Source: a virus. Taken from it: a stretch of 53,102 bases of DNA. Location of the stretch: the IMG/VR virus record IMGVR_UViG_3300044837_000127, positions 1-53,102 of that record; one strand, written 5' to 3'. Positions 20,386 through 25,894 of the stretch are shown here, piece by piece. The translations under genes and the position numbers were made by a program. Below the pieces are notes generated by a model that made no database searches, had not been told where the DNA came from, and saw only the letters and a program-made list of their open reading frames with translations. Position 1 is the stretch's first letter. Every line of letters begins with the position of its first letter.

Positions 20386-20970
20386 ATCCTTTATCGGTTT
20401 CCATTCGGCGCACGTTCTACCGGAGCGAATCGGGTAGGGGCCAATATACGGTTGGGGGGGAATTCCGGCGTTTGCGCTCTTCCCACGGGCCAGCGGGTGC
20501 AAAGGCATCCCATCGTCCGTGGTGCCCAGACATAGTAAGGGGGACGAATTGTACCGGGTGAAAGCGCCCAGCATCCGCCGGCAATGCTCCGGGTGGCGGC
20601 GCATAGGTTCCGCTCCGAAAGCGACCACCAGCCGATCGGCCGCCCCTCCGATCAGCTCCAAGGCCCGTTCATTCGCCAGAATCATGTCTTCGGTGATGCG
20701 ACCCGCTGCCAACGCCGTCCAAAGGTCGCGTGGATACGGGGTGCGCCAGCTCCACATATTACCCAGCAGAGACATGCCACCCCCGTGGTCATCGCTGGTG
20801 GTCACGGTCCGTCCGCATGTAGGGTCATCTATCAGATGGCTGGCCACGGACGGATTGGTCATCAGCCATGCGAAGACGAGCCGCGAGCCGTCCCAGCAGC
20901 GATAGAGCATCGGCCGGCACTGGGGGATGCCGTCGGCATTGAAATTGGTCAGACTGGCGCCCCGGAGCAT
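20383..20970 (-). CDS. DUF1643 protein
   Basis: 195 aa. Pattern: YRCWDGSRLVFAWLMTNPS, DDPTCGRTV, LLGNMWSWRTPYPRDLW, VVAFGAEP, and the late GMPLHPL. DUF1643 proteins are common in phages; the role is unproven, and the NPSxAxxxxxDPT motif suggests a nucleotide-related or nuclease-like site. Its ATG overlaps the stop of the polymerase ORF, so it belongs to the replication operon. A C7 run lies in its coding strand. Confidence 0.8.
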   Translation of the reverse strand: MLRGASLTNFNADGIPQCRPMLYRCWDGSRLVFAWLMTNPSVASHLIDDPTCGRTVTTSDDHGGGMSLLGNMWSWRTPYPRDLWTALAAGRITEDMILANERALELIGGAADRLVVAFGAEPMRRHPEHCRRMLGAFTRYNSSPLLCLGTTDDGMPLHPLARGKSANAGIPPQPYIGPYPIRSGRTCAEWKPIKD

Positions 20971-23231
20971 CAGACCTTCCTATAGACTCGGCCTCGCCAG
21001 CCGCCTTCGGCCCGGATGGGCCAATCGTGCGCAAAGGGCGGCGGGGTCGACAAGATCCCTTCCACATGCCCCACCGTCCCAAAGCCGTGCGGAACCTCCA
21101 GGACCACTTCGTCATAAACCTCCATGACCGGGACCGGATAGCCGGCGGCAATCAGCGCTTTGATGCCGTGGCGCTGGATTTCCACTTCATGACCCATAAC
21201 CACGTTTTCCGTCAGCGAGCCCCCATAGGTGGACAGCCGTTGCCAGCCGGGCGCCCCGCGCTTGGGGTTGCTGTTATATCCGGAATAGCTGATGGCCAAT
21301 TCGTCCATATTACGATCGGACTGGGCGAGCCGCGGGTGCCAATAAGTCAGCGAGCGAAGCCCGCTTAACAGACCGATCGTCAGCTTGTCCGTGGTCGCAT
21401 CATAGAGAAACGGCATTCCCCGGAACGTATAGACCACGCCGGGCGACTGGAGCGCGGCGATAAAATAGCCTTCCATGCCATAGAGTTCCGCCCGTTCGCG
21501 CCGCCAGGGCGGGCCGCGCCACTGGCCACCCCAGAACTCAACGATGGCGGGATTGGCCGCACGCCACGCGAGAATCTGGGTTCGGATTACATCGTCGGGC
21601 TCTTCGGATCCGAAAGCGCGGTAACTGGGAATCCAGCCTTGGAATCCGCAATTATGAACCAGCAGATGGCCGGTGGCCGTCTGGATCGTAAATCGGTTCC
21701 GCGGCCCCGCATGTGCAATGTCGTAAACGGGCTCGCAAGGCGTCCAGCTCGCGCTGCATCGCTTGGATAGATCGTTTGTTGCCAGTATTCGCTCGGCGCG
21801 TAACAAAGCGGAGATTGCCCGGCTCATAGTTACCATCCGTTTCGATACGATCAAGCTCCAGCGCCGGTTGATCCCAGCCGTCCAGAGTGACAAGGTAGGC
21901 CAGAAATTCGCGACGTCCGTCCGTACCATTAGTCCAGGGCTCATGGACGCGAATTCCGCGTTTTCCATAGTTGGGGTGGCCCTCTGGTCGACACCGAGTA
22001 AGGCAGGCTGAAATTCGGTTAAGAAGGCGGCGTCGGTGCCCATCATCCGGCACGATGACGGCGTATTTCCAAAACATTTTTTGGTATGCGCCAGCCGCTT
22101 TTCGGGCGCATACCCCGCAGCGAGTGCTAGCCCCCTTGCGAAGATTAGAAGCCGCAACATAGTACGGTTTCGAATCGCACCCACCGCACGTAACCAAAAT
22201 CGAGCTAACGGCCCCCCACTTGCCGTATCCAACCACGGTAAGCTGGCCGAACCTGTCGCCAATGCTTGGCGGAGCATGGTGCGGTTGGAAACGAGTCGGC
22301 TTGCCGGCTTCCAAAAACCGTTCAAGAATATCAGATGATTCGGGGTCATCCCGACGCCATCCAGGCGGACGGTCTCCGCGATACCCTTTGCGACTACCCC
22401 CGCATGGCAAACCCATTCCACCCCATCCCAAAGTAAATCGGTTAGACGAACAGCCACAATATCCACGTATCCGCGGGCCGTCAACACTTGGGTTTGACGG
22501 TTGAAACAAGCAAGCTCGGAAACCTTGCCGATCTTTTGGCGGTCCGGGTGGTGCTGGCGGTACGCTGGGTCCGGGTGCGATTGCTCCCAATACCGGAGGT
22601 ACTCCGAAACCGGCACCCCCGTAATCTTACTCGCCCCCAGCAAGTAAATCGGCTTGCCAGCACGGAAGGCATCGATACGCCATTGCTCGCCCGCGAGACA
22701 GGCCAGCACCACGGCTTGCAAGCTGCTGTAATCGGTAGCGATGAAATCGTAACCATCCGCGGCGATGAACAGTGACCGGATGCAGCCGGATATGGCCAGC
22801 AGGGCGTCCCCGAAGAACCGTTCCACCATGCCCAGATCCCGCGTGGCCATAATCTCCAGCACGAAGGGGACCATTTCCACGGTCCATTCCCGGCGCCGAT
22901 CGGCCGCGCCCAGGTTTCCGCACCATGGGCAGAACGGCGCGAGCTTATGGGGGCGGAGGCATTTTTCGCACCAGACCAGCCTGGGGCCGGCCTTCGGGAG
23001 ATTTAGCGGTTGAACCGCCCCGCCCGTAGGGCGCCCTGGCTGCGTTCCGTGATGGATGATAAGGTCGCGAAGGCGGTTGTCGCGGCACGCCTGGTTATCC
23101 ATCGCGTAGAGTTTTTTAACGCTTGCGGAGGCGGTTAGCTGACGGAGCTCCAGTACCCGCCGCACGTCCGCCGGCAAGTCGAGTCGCTCCAGAGCCGCGC
23201 TTACCGTTTCGCTGTCCAGAGAGGCTATCAT
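20970..23231 (-). CDS. Family-A DNA polymerase, polymerase domain, with intein
   Basis: 753-aa precursor that would give a ~467-aa polymerase domain after intein removal. Extein features: GRPTGGAVQPLNLPK (template grip), CEKC/CPWC zinc ribbon near residue 88, motif A DYSSLQAVVLACLAG near residue 167, motif B RQKIGKVSELA-CGFQGW split by the intein, motif C VYDEVVLEV near residue 700. Motif A has Gln where family-A enzymes have the steric-gate Glu, and motif C has Tyr for the usual His. The 3'-5' exonuclease domain is a separate ORF (23920-24828), because a GIY-YIG gene lies between them. The ATG overlaps that gene's stop. Confidence 0.85.
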   Translation of the reverse strand: MIASLDSETVSAALERLDLPADVRRVLELRQLTASASVKKLYAMDNQACRDNRLRDLIIHHGTQPGRPTGGAVQPLNLPKAGPRLVWCEKCLRPHKLAPFCPWCGNLGAADRRREWTVEMVPFVLEIMATRDLGMVERFFGDALLAISGCIRSLFIAADGYDFIATDYSSLQAVVLACLAGEQWRIDAFRAGKPIYLLGASKITGVPVSEYLRYWEQSHPDPAYRQHHPDRQKIGKVSELACFNRQTQVLTARGYVDIVAVRLTDLLWDGVEWVCHAGVVAKGIAETVRLDGVGMTPNHLIFLNGFWKPASRLVSNRTMLRQALATGSASLPWLDTASGGPLARFWLRAVGAIRNRTMLRLLIFARGLALAAGYAPEKRLAHTKKCFGNTPSSCRMMGTDAAFLTEFQPALLGVDQRATPTMENAEFASMSPGLMVRTDVANFWPTLSLWTAGINRRWSLIVSKRMVTMSRAISALLRAERILATNDLSKRCSASWTPCEPVYDIAHAGPRNRFTIQTATGHLLVHNCGFQGWIPSYRAFGSEEPDDVIRTQILAWRAANPAIVEFWGGQWRGPPWRRERAELYGMEGYFIAALQSPGVVYTFRGMPFLYDATTDKLTIGLLSGLRSLTYWHPRLAQSDRNMDELAISYSGYNSNPKRGAPGWQRLSTYGGSLTENVVMGHEVEIQRHGIKALIAAGYPVPVMEVYDEVVLEVPHGFGTVGHVEGILSTPPPFAHDWPIRAEGGWRGRVYRKV
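21651..22508 (-). mobile_element. Intein in polymerase motif B
   Basis: 286 residues, from Cys242 to Asn527 of the precursor. Splicing blocks are visible: A, CFNRQTQVLTARGY; B, GMTPNHLIF with NGFWKPASRL after it; F, CEPVYDIAHAG; G, GHLLVHN followed by Cys of the extein. Removing it joins KVSELA to CGFQGW in the O-helix motif, the conserved active-site position that inteins favour. Roughly residues 330-495 show no homing-endonuclease motif in this frame. That stretch is the out-of-frame reading of an HNH gene. Confidence 0.85.
21652..22413 (-). CDS. HNH endonuclease encoded out of frame inside the intein
   Basis: A different frame of the intein DNA encodes a recognisable phage-type HNH protein over about 22263-21721. 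It reads IGDRFGQLTVVGYG, then CGGCDSKPYYVAASNLRKGAS with TRCGVC, then NRISACLTRCRPEGHPNYGKRGI and ELDRIETDGNYEPGNLRFVT. Its TAA uses bases of the His-Asn end of the intein. The best start is uncertain: ATG 22413, preceded by G-rich GGGATGGGG, gives 253 aa; TTG 22314 is another. Alternatively a frameshift joins it to the intein. It would be the homing nuclease of this intein. Confidence 0.75.
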   Translation of the reverse strand, partial: GLPCGGSRKGYRGDRPPGWRRDDPESSDILERFLEAGKPTRFQPHHAPPSIGDRFGQLTVVGYGKWGAVSSILVTCGGCDSKPYYVAASNLRKGASTRCGVCARKAAGAYQKMFWKYAVIVPDDGHRRRLLNRISACLTRCRPEGHPNYGKRGIRVHEPWTNGTDGRREFLAYLVTLDGWDQPALELDRIETDGNYEPGNLRFVTRRANTGNKRSIQAMQRELDALRARLRHCTCGAAEPIYDPDGHRPSAGS

Positions 23232-23884
23232 GCCTTTTTCGCTCGGTTGGTGGCCTGTAGTGTCTCCCGGCGCCGCGCGATGTAGTCGGCATAGCGGTCT
23301 GGATCGGCACGCAAGTCCACCCAGAATTGCTTAATCCCACGGCTGGCGGCTTCGGCCCTTTGTCGGACGTCTCCCTTGGCGCGCGCGGCCAACATTCGTT
23401 CTTGCTGGAGCGCTTTGAACGCCGGGTCTTCGGCGCATCGTCTTTTCAGAGTGGCGGAAATAGTGTCGAAAATTTGCCGCTTGCGCTTCGGGCTTCGGGA
23501 CGCCCAGACCCCCCGCGTGACTTCCGAAGACCGAAGACTATAGGCGGCATAAAATGTCGGGTCGGTACTAAGCCGGTGCCGTAAAGCGATGGGGCCGGTC
23601 AATGCGTCATAGTCTCCGCCCGGCGAAATGTTGTATCCGTCCGACCGGTCCGCGCTATTGAGCATGGCGATCAACGATATCTCTGCGGCTTTTGCGGCAA
23701 CAAGGTCTGGATGAGAAGAAACAATTTCCATCGTGAAGGCGTCCCGTCCGTATTTCTTCATGGCTCGATAAAGCGGATGAGCCTTTTTGCACTTTCGATG
23801 TTGACGCCAGCGTTCTTTGGGATTGTTGGTGATCCCCACGTACGCTTTGCCTGTTGGTCCCAGGATGACATAGAGATAGGTCAT
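23228..23884 (-). CDS. GIY-YIG homing endonuclease splitting the polymerase gene
   Basis: 218 aa. GIY-YIG core at the N-terminus: YLYVILGPTGKAYVGITNNPKERWRQH, then AMKKYGRDAF and the Glu of AAKAAEISLI. Basic tail with repeats of the KRRCAEDPAFKAL kind, probably DNA-binding. It lies exactly between the exonuclease and polymerase parts of the DNA polymerase and overlaps the second part (ATGA). This is the arrangement known for genes fragmented by free-standing homing endonucleases in T4-like phages. Confidence 0.9.
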   Translation of the reverse strand: MTYLYVILGPTGKAYVGITNNPKERWRQHRKCKKAHPLYRAMKKYGRDAFTMEIVSSHPDLVAAKAAEISLIAMLNSADRSDGYNISPGGDYDALTGPIALRHRLSTDPTFYAAYSLRSSEVTRGVWASRSPKRKRQIFDTISATLKRRCAEDPAFKALQQERMLAARAKGDVRQRAEAASRGIKQFWVDLRADPDRYADYIARRRETLQATNRAKKA

Positions 23885-23919
23885 TCAGATAGATTAAGCG
23901 GCTAAAGTTTCCACGTCAA

Positions 23920-24828
23920 CTAAAATGGGATATCGTCCGCTAAATCTTCATCATATTGCTGACTGAAGCCGTAACCGCCGGCACCGTTGGAGCGAAACGT
24001 CGGACCGTGCATCCTGCCCTGAATCCACCCCACAAGCGCTTGCACTTGGGACGGGCCGATACCGCCGGTTATCTCGCGGCATTCGGCGCCGTAGCGCTCC
24101 AGCACCGCCTCCAGCACCGCCCGGCAATCCAGCACCGCCGGCCGGTCAATGCCGATGCCTCGCCAATTCATTTCCTGATTGATCTGCCAGATTTCCAGCT
24201 CGCTGGGTGACATGGGCGGCATGGCGGAGCTGGCCGCTTGCTCCGTTTGCACGTCCCGATCGCAATAGAGGCATAGCCGTTCAAAATCTTCGGGGTCATC
24301 CTCCGGCCGGATCCGGCGCCGGCTATCGGCCTTGGTAGGGTTGCGGGGCACGCTGAATTTATCCAGCAGCCGCTTACCTTCCTTATCCTTCCGGGTTTCC
24401 AGCCGCAGCACGTCGCCCAGCGCGTCCAGCTTGCCGGGGAGGCTGTTGACGCGAGCCGTGGCCATGCTGCAGCGCTGGACTCCGGGAGGGAGCGGCGGCC
24501 ATCCGTACCGGGGAACGCAAACGTTCGCCCAGATCAGCCGTTCGAACATGGCGTTATGCGATTCGAGCTCCGCCCCTGGGCGCGTGACGTGGATGAACAA
24601 ATCTTCGGGCGGTGGCAGATGGGGACCAAGGCGCCGGATGCCTTTGCCGTCCAGCAGATCATAAGAGCCGGTCAGCACTTCGGTGGTTGGATGCTCGCTA
24701 TATGCGGGGGCCCCGACCGACTCCAGACCCTTTTTCCGGGCACCCTCCGGCATCCGCCATTTCTGGGTTGTTTCGTCCCATATATGGCCGGCTTCCGAAT
24801 AGGTTTCAAAGTCCAGGGCTGGGCGCAT
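23920..24828 (-). CDS. DNA polymerase A, 3'-5' exonuclease half, with SSB-like tail
   Basis: 302 aa. Exo I motif LDFETYS at the N-terminus, Exo II region ESHNAMFERLIW near residue 90, Exo III YCDRDVQTEQAA near residue 190. The protein follows full-length phage polymerases up to SQVQALVGWIQ near residue 262 and then changes. The new tail is Gly/Ser-rich and ends YDEDLADDIPF, very like the acidic DDDIPF tip by which bacterial SSB binds partner proteins. It must pair with the polymerase half encoded after the GIY-YIG gene. It starts three bases after the MazG-like gene. Confidence 0.85.
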   Translation of the reverse strand: MRPALDFETYSEAGHIWDETTQKWRMPEGARKKGLESVGAPAYSEHPTTEVLTGSYDLLDGKGIRRLGPHLPPPEDLFIHVTRPGAELESHNAMFERLIWANVCVPRYGWPPLPPGVQRCSMATARVNSLPGKLDALGDVLRLETRKDKEGKRLLDKFSVPRNPTKADSRRRIRPEDDPEDFERLCLYCDRDVQTEQAASSAMPPMSPSELEIWQINQEMNWRGIGIDRPAVLDCRAVLEAVLERYGAECREITGGIGPSQVQALVGWIQGRMHGPTFRSNGAGGYGFSQQYDEDLADDIPF

Positions 24829-24831
24829 TGG

Positions 24832-25209
24832 TCACGCGGTGCCGGGGAGCGGCGAATCAGACGGCCGCGAATCATATTTGGCACGAATGCGGGCAATCAT
24901 GGCCGGGGTGTCGACGCGGCCCAATTCGATATAAGCGCAATCCGCCATGTCCATCTGACGCGCCAAGCAAAGCGCCGCCAGCGTAACCATTACCCCGCCA
25001 GCCTCCGATTCAGGGATACCCTTGGGGCGTCCAAAAACATAATCAACCAGACGGTGCGCGTCTTCGGCGGTCATATCGCACGCTTGGACTAGCTCCAGCG
25101 CTTCCTCCAGAAACCGGTTATTCCGTTCGGCTGGATCCATCCCGAAGCCAGCGGGAAAGCTCCGGCGCATCCAGTGGAGTACCGCTGTCTGAAACGCCGA
25201 CATGGCCAT
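24832..25209 (-). CDS. MazG-like nucleotide pyrophosphohydrolase
   Basis: 125 aa from ATG 25209, which overlaps the upstream stop (TGATG). Pattern AERNNRFLEEALELVQACD, then RPKGIPESEAGGVMVTLAALCLA and IARIRAKYDSR, matches the MazG-like all-alpha family (EExxE...ExxD type helices), which hydrolyse nucleoside triphosphates. In phage operons they shape the nucleotide pool next to the polymerase, as here. Confidence 0.75.
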   Translation of the reverse strand: MAMSAFQTAVLHWMRRSFPAGFGMDPAERNNRFLEEALELVQACDMTAEDAHRLVDYVFGRPKGIPESEAGGVMVTLAALCLARQMDMADCAYIELGRVDTPAMIARIRAKYDSRPSDSPLPGTA

Positions 25210-25724
25210 CAGTCGCACCCCGGCCCGACGCTCGCGCTGTCCCCAGAGGCACCGAAGGCGGTAAAATCCTTCCAGTGACGCCAGCCGTTGGGACAATGGA
25301 ATCCCCATTCACGGACCGTGGGACCGGTGGCGAAGAGCGAAATACACCGGCCACCTTCGGGAATCTCCAGGCGGTGCGCATCGGTCGCTTCCCGCGTGAC
25401 AATATCGCCCGGAGCGCGCCAGACCCGCCGGAACGGTCCGTCCGCCCCCGTGCCGTCCGGCTCCGGCATGATTTCCCAATAGCCCCCTTCCAGCACGAAG
25501 TTGGTATTGGGCCACGGATGATCGTGAAGCGCCCGGTCATCGTCGCTTCGTTGGGTCAGGTGGAGATAGAGATTCATCGAATCGTTGCGGGGAATGATCC
25601 ACCAGCGACGGATATAATCAGGCTCCCCTGGCCCGATAATGAAATCCGGCTTGGGGCGCACGATCATAGTGGCGCGAGCCCAAGCCACCATTTCCTCCAG
25701 GGTAGCCGTAAACTGTCCGCTCAT
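25209..25724 (-). CDS. Cupin-fold protein, unknown substrate
   Basis: 171 aa. Start at ATG 25724 is fixed by an ATGA overlap with the small upstream gene and a GGGGAG ribosome site 8-9 bases before it. Cupin metal motif: ALHDHPWPNTNFVLEGGYWEI near residue 80, with a second part GDIVTREATDAHRLEIP near residue 115. It ends WGFHCPNGWRHWKDF. Such cupins are frequent in phage replication operons; function unknown, possibly small-molecule or nucleotide modification. Confidence 0.7.
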   Translation of the reverse strand: MSGQFTATLEEMVAWARATMIVRPKPDFIIGPGEPDYIRRWWIIPRNDSMNLYLHLTQRSDDDRALHDHPWPNTNFVLEGGYWEIMPEPDGTGADGPFRRVWRAPGDIVTREATDAHRLEIPEGGRCISLFATGPTVREWGFHCPNGWRHWKDFTAFGASGDSASVGPGCD

Positions 25725-25894
25725 TCCTTCGTCTCCCCAACGTGGTCGGGACATAAATGCGTCCCGCCGCTGCAATGCCATCCCATCCGGTTCAACCCAT
25801 GAGCGGCCATAATCTCTTCGATTGGCGGGGCCGGGCGGTCACAAACGTTGCAATGGATCCGGGGGTTATCCCCGGCATCGTCACGCTTGATCAT
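25721..25894 (-). CDS. 57-aa Cys/His zinc-finger protein
   Basis: Reads MIKRDDAGDNPRIHCNVCD, a helix (PIEEIMAAHGLN), then MGWHCSGGTHLCPDH: two CxxC-like pairs with a final H, a typical small phage zinc protein. Ribosome site GGAAGGGG. Ends in an ATGA overlap with the cupin gene. Confidence 0.7.
   Translation of the reverse strand: MIKRDDAGDNPRIHCNVCDRPAPPIEEIMAAHGLNRMGWHCSGGTHLCPDHVGETKE

Follow-up and report, generated by a model that had tools for sequence, protein, structure and literature searches.

An intein in a phage family-A DNA polymerase gene with its HNH endonuclease encoded in an overlapping reading frame

In classical bifunctional inteins, for example PI-SceI, the intein polypeptide contains the endonuclease as an in-frame domain. 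The LAGLIDADG-containing helicase intein of Jerseyvirus, which is annotated in phage Ent2, is of this kind. A second arrangement, reportedly described by Dassa and colleagues in 2009, is that of split inteins in fractured genes, in which a free-standing endonuclease gene lies between the two halves. The published element nearest to the intein analysed here is the ShiLan domain/Pacc40 gp60 insertion (Arsenault, Gosselin and Gogarten 2025, PMC11855218); the ShiLan domain, inserted in a methylase of a mycobacteriophage, holds its HNH gene out of frame, and neither intein or intron splicing domains nor a ribosome-binding site were detected in it.

The intein described here interrupts a DNA polymerase gene in the window, by which we mean the whole 53,102-nucleotide stretch of viral DNA that was analysed (IMG/VR record IMGVR_UViG_3300044837_000127). 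It resembles the bifunctional inteins in its Hint fold, its splicing residues, the choice of a replication-gene motif as insertion site and the position of the endonuclease between blocks B and F, but the endonuclease is encoded separately in another frame, and only a disordered loop takes its place in the intein polypeptide. As in split inteins, the endonuclease gene is apart from the splicing polypeptide; unlike them, the window element and nearly all of its relatives form one continuous open reading frame that is overlapped by the endonuclease. With the ShiLan and Pacc40 insertions it shares an open host frame, a hidden out-of-frame HNH gene, a stop near the end of the insertion and a mobile distribution, and its HNH protein matches that of Pacc40 with an E value of 7e-6. 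In contrast to ShiLan, it has both Hint halves, which are conserved, and a start with a sequence resembling a ribosome-binding site. Judged by the features tested, the element is an intein, yet not a bifunctional in-frame one. A search of published articles, mainly in open-access journals, brought up no description of an out-of-frame endonuclease in an intein.

When a profile of the Hint N-terminal region was run on Mycobacterium phage Pacc40 gp60 (L270), it matched only at residues 932-1002, away from the HNH insertion, which suggests that the same gene carries a separate intein.

Splicing and endonuclease frames at polymerase motif B

The features of the locus are collected in Table 1. Over its full length the polymerase is 42% identical to that of Pseudomonas phage MR14 and 40% identical to that of Vibrio phage 97.13. 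Comparison with intein-free homologues (phage TPWB-08 and others, which have no insertion at this point) places the insertion at residues 242-527 of the polymerase, within motif B (..RQKIGKVSELA^CGFQGW..). The intein runs from C1 to H285-N286 and is followed by C+1, and the polymerase frame is open throughout. The preliminary description had proposed an intein with blocks A, B, F and G at this motif; its coordinates proved exact, and profile and fold comparisons now support it.

Table 1. Features of the polymerase intein and of the HNH gene that overlaps it (window coordinates).
Feature	Position	Strand	Evidence
Polymerase part of family-A DNA polymerase, CDS	20970..23231	-	Pfam DNA_pol_A E 4e-6, one segment
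Intein, 286 codons, polymerase frame	21651..22508	-	Translation, invariant splicing residues, profile matches to solved inteins
N-terminal splicing (Hint) region, blocks A and B	22230..22508	-	AlphaFold pLDDT about 97-98, residues 1-90
Read-through loop (HNH-coding DNA in intein frame), predicted disordered	21747..22229	-	pLDDT about 40
C-terminal splicing region, blocks F and G, VYDIAHAGPRNRFTI...LLVHN	21651..21746	-	pLDDT about 97; conserved residues
Out-of-frame (+2) HNH homing endonuclease gene, 254 codons and stop TAA	21652..22416	-	PHROG families, AlphaFold
Proposed internal start ATG, across intein Glu-Trp codons GAA TGG	22414..22416	-	Start conservation in relatives
G-rich Shine-Dalgarno-like stretch GGGATGGGGTGGA, also coding intein WDGVE	22417..22429	-	Anti-SD duplex energy
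Zn-binding N-terminal domain of HNH protein (C77, C80, C100, C103)	22093..22269	-	Cys conservation
HNH-type nuclease core, ...NYGKRGI...ELDRIETDGNYEPGNLRF...N..NKR	21757..22044	-	Invariant residues; HNH codon position 3 fastest

The residues expected of a splicing domain (C1, T55 and H58 of the block B TxxH motif, H285 and N286) are invariant across 56-61 aligned relatives, and D263, R272, F273 and G280 are conserved with H285 and N286 in the C-terminal splicing region. Structures were predicted from alignments of the window and relative loci, with sequences from annotated phage records left out. For the intein frame (56 relatives) the pLDDT is about 97 at residues 1-90 and 260-286 and about 40 between them, including the read-through loop at residues 95-241. 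Read-through of HNH-coding DNA had been anticipated in the preliminary description and is borne out, although the stretch that does not fold (residues about 95-250) is some 155 residues long rather than the 165 given there. The best Foldseek matches of the model are the DnaX and gp41-1 inteins (probability 1.00), and the DnaX, gp41-1, DnaB and RecA inteins all match with probabilities of 0.99-1.00; the E values are only about 0.002 or weaker because of the disordered loop. A sequence profile built from the window intein also matches solved inteins. By every feature tested, the insertion is a class-1-type intein, which presumably splices.

The HNH gene lies wholly inside the intein, in a +2 frame that is open from 22626 to 21652 (minus strand). 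Its TAA stop (21654-21652) is built from CAT AAT, the codons of the terminal His-Asn of the intein, and the stop arises from these codons likewise in 21 of 99 relatives with a +2 HNH frame. PHROG HNH endonuclease families (phrog_374 and others) match the product with a best E value of 3.6e-25, and they match the corresponding product in 61/61 relatives. The four cysteines of the putative zinc-binding domain and residues D189, R190, Y197, N201, N210 and N213 of the core are all invariant in 56-61 relatives. The AlphaFold model of this frame has a mean pLDDT of 81.5 and reaches about 90 or more over most of residues 50-220. A Pfam search of the product returned no HNH match and a structure search of the model against the PDB returned no close match, so the assignment as a nuclease rests on the PHROG families and the conserved residues. 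The first His of the textbook HNH motif is not evident; DRID stands in its place. The product is probably an HNH-family endonuclease, and it would be expected to cut the empty allele. A well-formed HNH protein with a zinc-knuckle start in a second open frame, terminated by the His-Asn codons, had been recognized from the start, and each of these points is upheld.

Several other observations concern the surrounding replication genes. The window polymerase is split in two, with an exonuclease part at 23920-24831 and the polymerase part listed in Table 1, both on the minus strand. A GIY-YIG endonuclease gene (23228-23884, minus strand) sits between them; in relatives the polymerase is a single open reading frame. 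Rfam shows no intron in the split region (23228-24831, minus strand), so the GIY-YIG gene appears to encode a second homing endonuclease, whose insertion would have divided the polymerase gene. Motif A of the polymerase (about 22720-22745, minus strand) reads DYSSLQ in the window, compared with DYSxIE or similar in the relatives compared; Gln replaces the conserved Glu, which is unusual for an active-site motif. A predicted cysteine-dioxygenase-like protein (25209-25781, minus strand; phrog_4786, E value 2e-52) is encoded near the replication genes.

Distribution of the two-frame design and selection on both frames

The same two-frame design was found in phages of Salmonella, Escherichia, Pseudomonas, Vibrio, Accumulibacter (EBPR), Streptococcus, Gardnerella, Hamiltonella (APSE), Caulobacter and Shewanella. 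The first six homologues (L001, MR14, Vibrio phage 97.13, the Jerseyviruses F12013 and VSe103 and EBPR siphovirus 2) have the HNH gene in the +2 frame, while that of Gardnerella phage AB1 has it in +1. Scans with single proteins yielded one relative each, and relatives were gathered by profile scans instead. The first profile scan of viral contigs gave 80 loci, all 80 with a full-length open intein frame and the HNH gene in +2. This profile contained the read-through middle and could favour +2 elements, and the scan was repeated with the intein N-domain only. The 80 loci of the repeat included 63 uninterrupted inteins with HNH in +1 and 11 uninterrupted inteins without an HNH gene; an in-frame HNH was found in none. 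Taken together, 201 uninterrupted inteins with an HNH gene were collected, and in none does that gene share the frame of the intein; a non-redundant set of 167 divides into 99 elements with HNH in +2 and 68 in +1, again with no in-frame case.

In GenBank, 239 phage records from many laboratories match the window HNH protein, and in 174 a place in the record covers at least 80% of the Jerseyvirus HNH. Over 100 isolated Jerseyvirus, Kagunavirus and Dhillonvirus records are among the two-frame homologues. Insertion sites of the family within the polymerase include several points at motif B as well as a second site (GGKL/EN), and helicase-like genes are also occupied. The two-frame design is the rule in a large, previously unrecognized phage intein family. 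The analysis thus extends the preliminary description from one locus to a whole family, with two frames, several genes, HNH-less mini-inteins and two apparently split members.

Some members have been annotated before. Salmonella phages Ent2 and Ent3 and Escherichia phage Pubbukkers carry annotated polymerase inteins that belong to the out-of-frame-HNH family; the Ent2 annotation describes a polymerase intein 'encoding splicing domains' and leaves the HNH in the other frame unmentioned. Among the GenBank records examined, Sodalis phage SO-1 alone annotates both products, but as an intron.

Two further observations were made on individual loci. Out-of-frame HNH inteins of the same design occur in what look like helicase genes (L055:7797-8723, L056:4001-4870, L268:4001-4924 and L269:4001-4930). 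A polymerase intein in scaffold22 of a Bacteroidota assembly, Taishania pollutisoli (L264), is 96% identical to the Salmonella Jerseyvirus intein; its flanks are 93% identical as well, and the assembly therefore probably contains phage contamination.

The coexistence of two open frames is not what the HNH codons alone would give. Synonymous shuffles of the HNH codons of the window leave the intein frame stop-free in only 2.3% of trials. Through the HNH core of 96 relatives of the +2 class, the intein frame has 0 stops compared with 376 expected from synonymous shuffling, and seven +1 elements have 0 compared with 49; the third frame, which served as a control in the 96 relatives, is normal (1743 stops seen, 1633 expected).

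Selection was assessed by tallying the changes between related elements by codon position. For the HNH core, the values at positions 1, 2 and 3 of the HNH codons are 0.090, 0.050 and 0.216. The corresponding values by intein codon position are 0.055, 0.030 and 0.202 for the intein N-domain before the HNH start and 0.027, 0.022 and 0.188 for the C-domain. In the overlap from the internal start to codon 80, change is low at all three positions (0.048, 0.082 and 0.087). Most changes in the middle region fall at intein codon position 2, which is HNH position 3, and the intein frame there shows no amino-acid constraint. This dual-frame pattern is found in 24 of 26 independent (non-overlapping) pairs of the +2 class and 17 of 19 of the +1 class. 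In the +1 class, where the HNH gene begins later, codons 31-75 have the ordinary intein pattern and provide an internal control. The codon-position pattern and the absence of stops together indicate that the middle of the intein frame is selected for its lack of stops and not for its residues. Both frames are under selection. The codon-constraint analysis proposed in the preliminary description thus finds each segment constrained in the expected frame and the overlap constrained in both.

Proposed translation of the HNH frame and alternative explanations

In the model that we favour, the element is a contiguous phage intein, and its mobility enzyme is encoded by a gene of its own that overlaps the intein frame; we assign this model as a whole a probability of about 0.88. 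The polymerase would be translated straight through the intein, and the Hint domain would fold from both intein ends around a disordered loop that is the HNH-coding DNA read in the wrong frame. The intein would then excise itself and restore polymerase motif B. On the same mRNA, ribosomes may use a second start inside the Hint-coding sequence, at the ATG at 22416 with its G-rich, ribosome-binding-like sequence, to make an independent 254-residue HNH endonuclease in the +2 frame that ends inside the intein. This enzyme is predicted to cut intein-free polymerase genes, into which the element would be copied. We infer internal initiation, protein splicing, DNA cutting and homing alike from the patterns described here.

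The codon pair that ends in the Trp of the Hint motif WDGxEWV yields a start codon in the HNH frame in 96 of 96 relatives of the +2 class (73 ATG, 22 GTG and one TTG). The Glu or Lys codon before this Trp ends in A in 68 of 86 cases, compared with 39.5 expected from the same polymerases. Many elements with a GTG start have an ATG two codons further on, with sequences such as GGGGAGGAG before it. The duplex with the anti-Shine-Dalgarno sequence is calculated at -6.9 kcal/mol in the window, and the energy at the best start averages -7.6 kcal/mol over relatives against a background of -2.2 to -2.6 kcal/mol. The motif-B +1 class has an ATG at intein codons 44-53 in 50 of 53 elements (at codon 49 in 44 of 53), accompanied by AAGGAGGT-like sequences; the energy is -6 kcal/mol or lower in 46 of 50 (background 9%), and the frame from start to HNH is stop-free in 54 of 54. 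As a control, several mini-inteins that lack the HNH gene were found to have an ATG and a good Shine-Dalgarno sequence too. The start motifs are therefore no proof of their own use, and we have given the Shine-Dalgarno argument less weight. Conserved intein residues (WDGxEWV; KEV..YDG) in part determine both the start codon and the Shine-Dalgarno-like stretch, which we read as exapted rather than newly evolved.

The preliminary description had left the choice between an internal start and a frameshift, and this choice can now be narrowed. Programmed ribosomal frameshifting from the polymerase frame would yield a polymerase-N-intein-HNH fusion. The +2 frame can be reached by -1 slippage, it is open well upstream of the proposed start in the window itself (from 22626), and a few relatives keep the HNH frame open over a long upstream stretch, of up to 115-148 codons. 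However, in most +2 elements upstream stops close the HNH frame within a few codons of the start, only 15 of 99 contain any X XXY YYZ heptamer in the interval from codon 15 to the core, and these lie at scattered positions, and the +1 class would need the opposite shift. The start-site evidence favours internal initiation at 22416, and frameshifting appears unlikely. A decaying HNH pseudogene in an otherwise fixed intein would be in keeping with the HNH-less and degraded members (L183, L182 and L190), but the HNH frame is under purifying selection in both the +2 and the +1 classes, the +1 class has no stops from start to core, and the element shows presence/absence polymorphism and excess intein identity, so that decay is improbable.

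The GenBank note 'type I self-splicing intron' for gp38/gp39 of Sodalis phage SO-1 (L168) raises the question of a group I intron. No Rfam intron match was obtained in the window, even at E values up to 5, the host frame is open throughout, and the Hint blocks are conserved, with change at third positions and a predicted intein fold. A group I intron is thus very improbable, and the SO-1 annotation appears to be a mis-annotation of an intein. That two indels might have pushed an in-frame HNH out of register, by sequencing or assembly error, finds a precedent in one old Jerseyvirus record, SS3e, which is a frameshifted copy. The indel in SS3e breaks both frames, whereas the out-of-frame elements include 201 that are uninterrupted. 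The comparison of homologues suggested earlier as a check on such an artefact finds the same layout in 167 non-redundant elements, with the third-position signatures proper to each segment. For the family, an indel artefact is refuted by the recurrence of the out-of-frame layout across many laboratories and hosts, and for the window we regard its probability as negligible.

Mobility, origin and significance

The separate overlapping gene that we favour would be expected to make the intein mobile. The empty insertion site is intact in 207 of 368 Jerseyvirus- or Kagunavirus-type records. Between a Jerseyvirus and a Dhillonvirus the inteins are 82% identical and the flanks 66-68%; between loci L041 and L060 the figures are 90% and 72-77%. 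The empty sites and the excess intein identity show mobility, for which the homing cut would be the likely means.

In a tree of the HNH proteins (midpoint root only), the +2 elements form one clade (97/99). The +1 elements occupy two or more distinct positions: some group with the split pair, others lie among free-standing HNH genes. Out-of-frame entry would accordingly have taken place at least twice and probably three times. HNH-less mini-inteins of 120-168 residues (L182, from a Ruminococcus phage; L183, from Streptococcus phage Javan422; L190, L206, L216 and others) occupy the same polymerase sites with the splicing frame kept, and that of Javan422 still contains a remnant of the HNH N-terminus. 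Two loci, L001 (695-1695) and L087 (1966-2984), have a further intein at an earlier polymerase site, with the N-half, the HNH gene and the C-half in three frames. The N-half is followed by a stop codon, an arrangement like that of a split intein; these first inteins of the two loci are apparently split.

One tentative reading, to which we give slightly less than even odds, is that free-standing HNH genes repeatedly colonize phage mini-inteins as complete out-of-frame genes and not as in-frame fusions. For their expression they would rely on a ribosome-binding site and a start codon that are present by chance in the Hint motifs. On the same reading, loss of the HNH gene would yield mini-inteins, and a stop in the loop would yield split inteins with the HNH gene between their halves, so that the overlapping state would be a precursor of fractured genes.

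The two-frame design explains some puzzling annotations, namely endonuclease-less inteins and 'introns', and surveys restricted to in-frame inteins will have missed out-of-frame endonucleases. It also offers a clear phage example of two overlapping genes that are conserved on the same strand, in a family whose hosts include the well-known, completely sequenced Jerseyvirus and APSE phages. Coding in two frames would uncouple the dose of the nuclease from that of the polymerase. Two questions are made testable by this family: the route by which endonuclease genes get into inteins, and the origin of split inteins.
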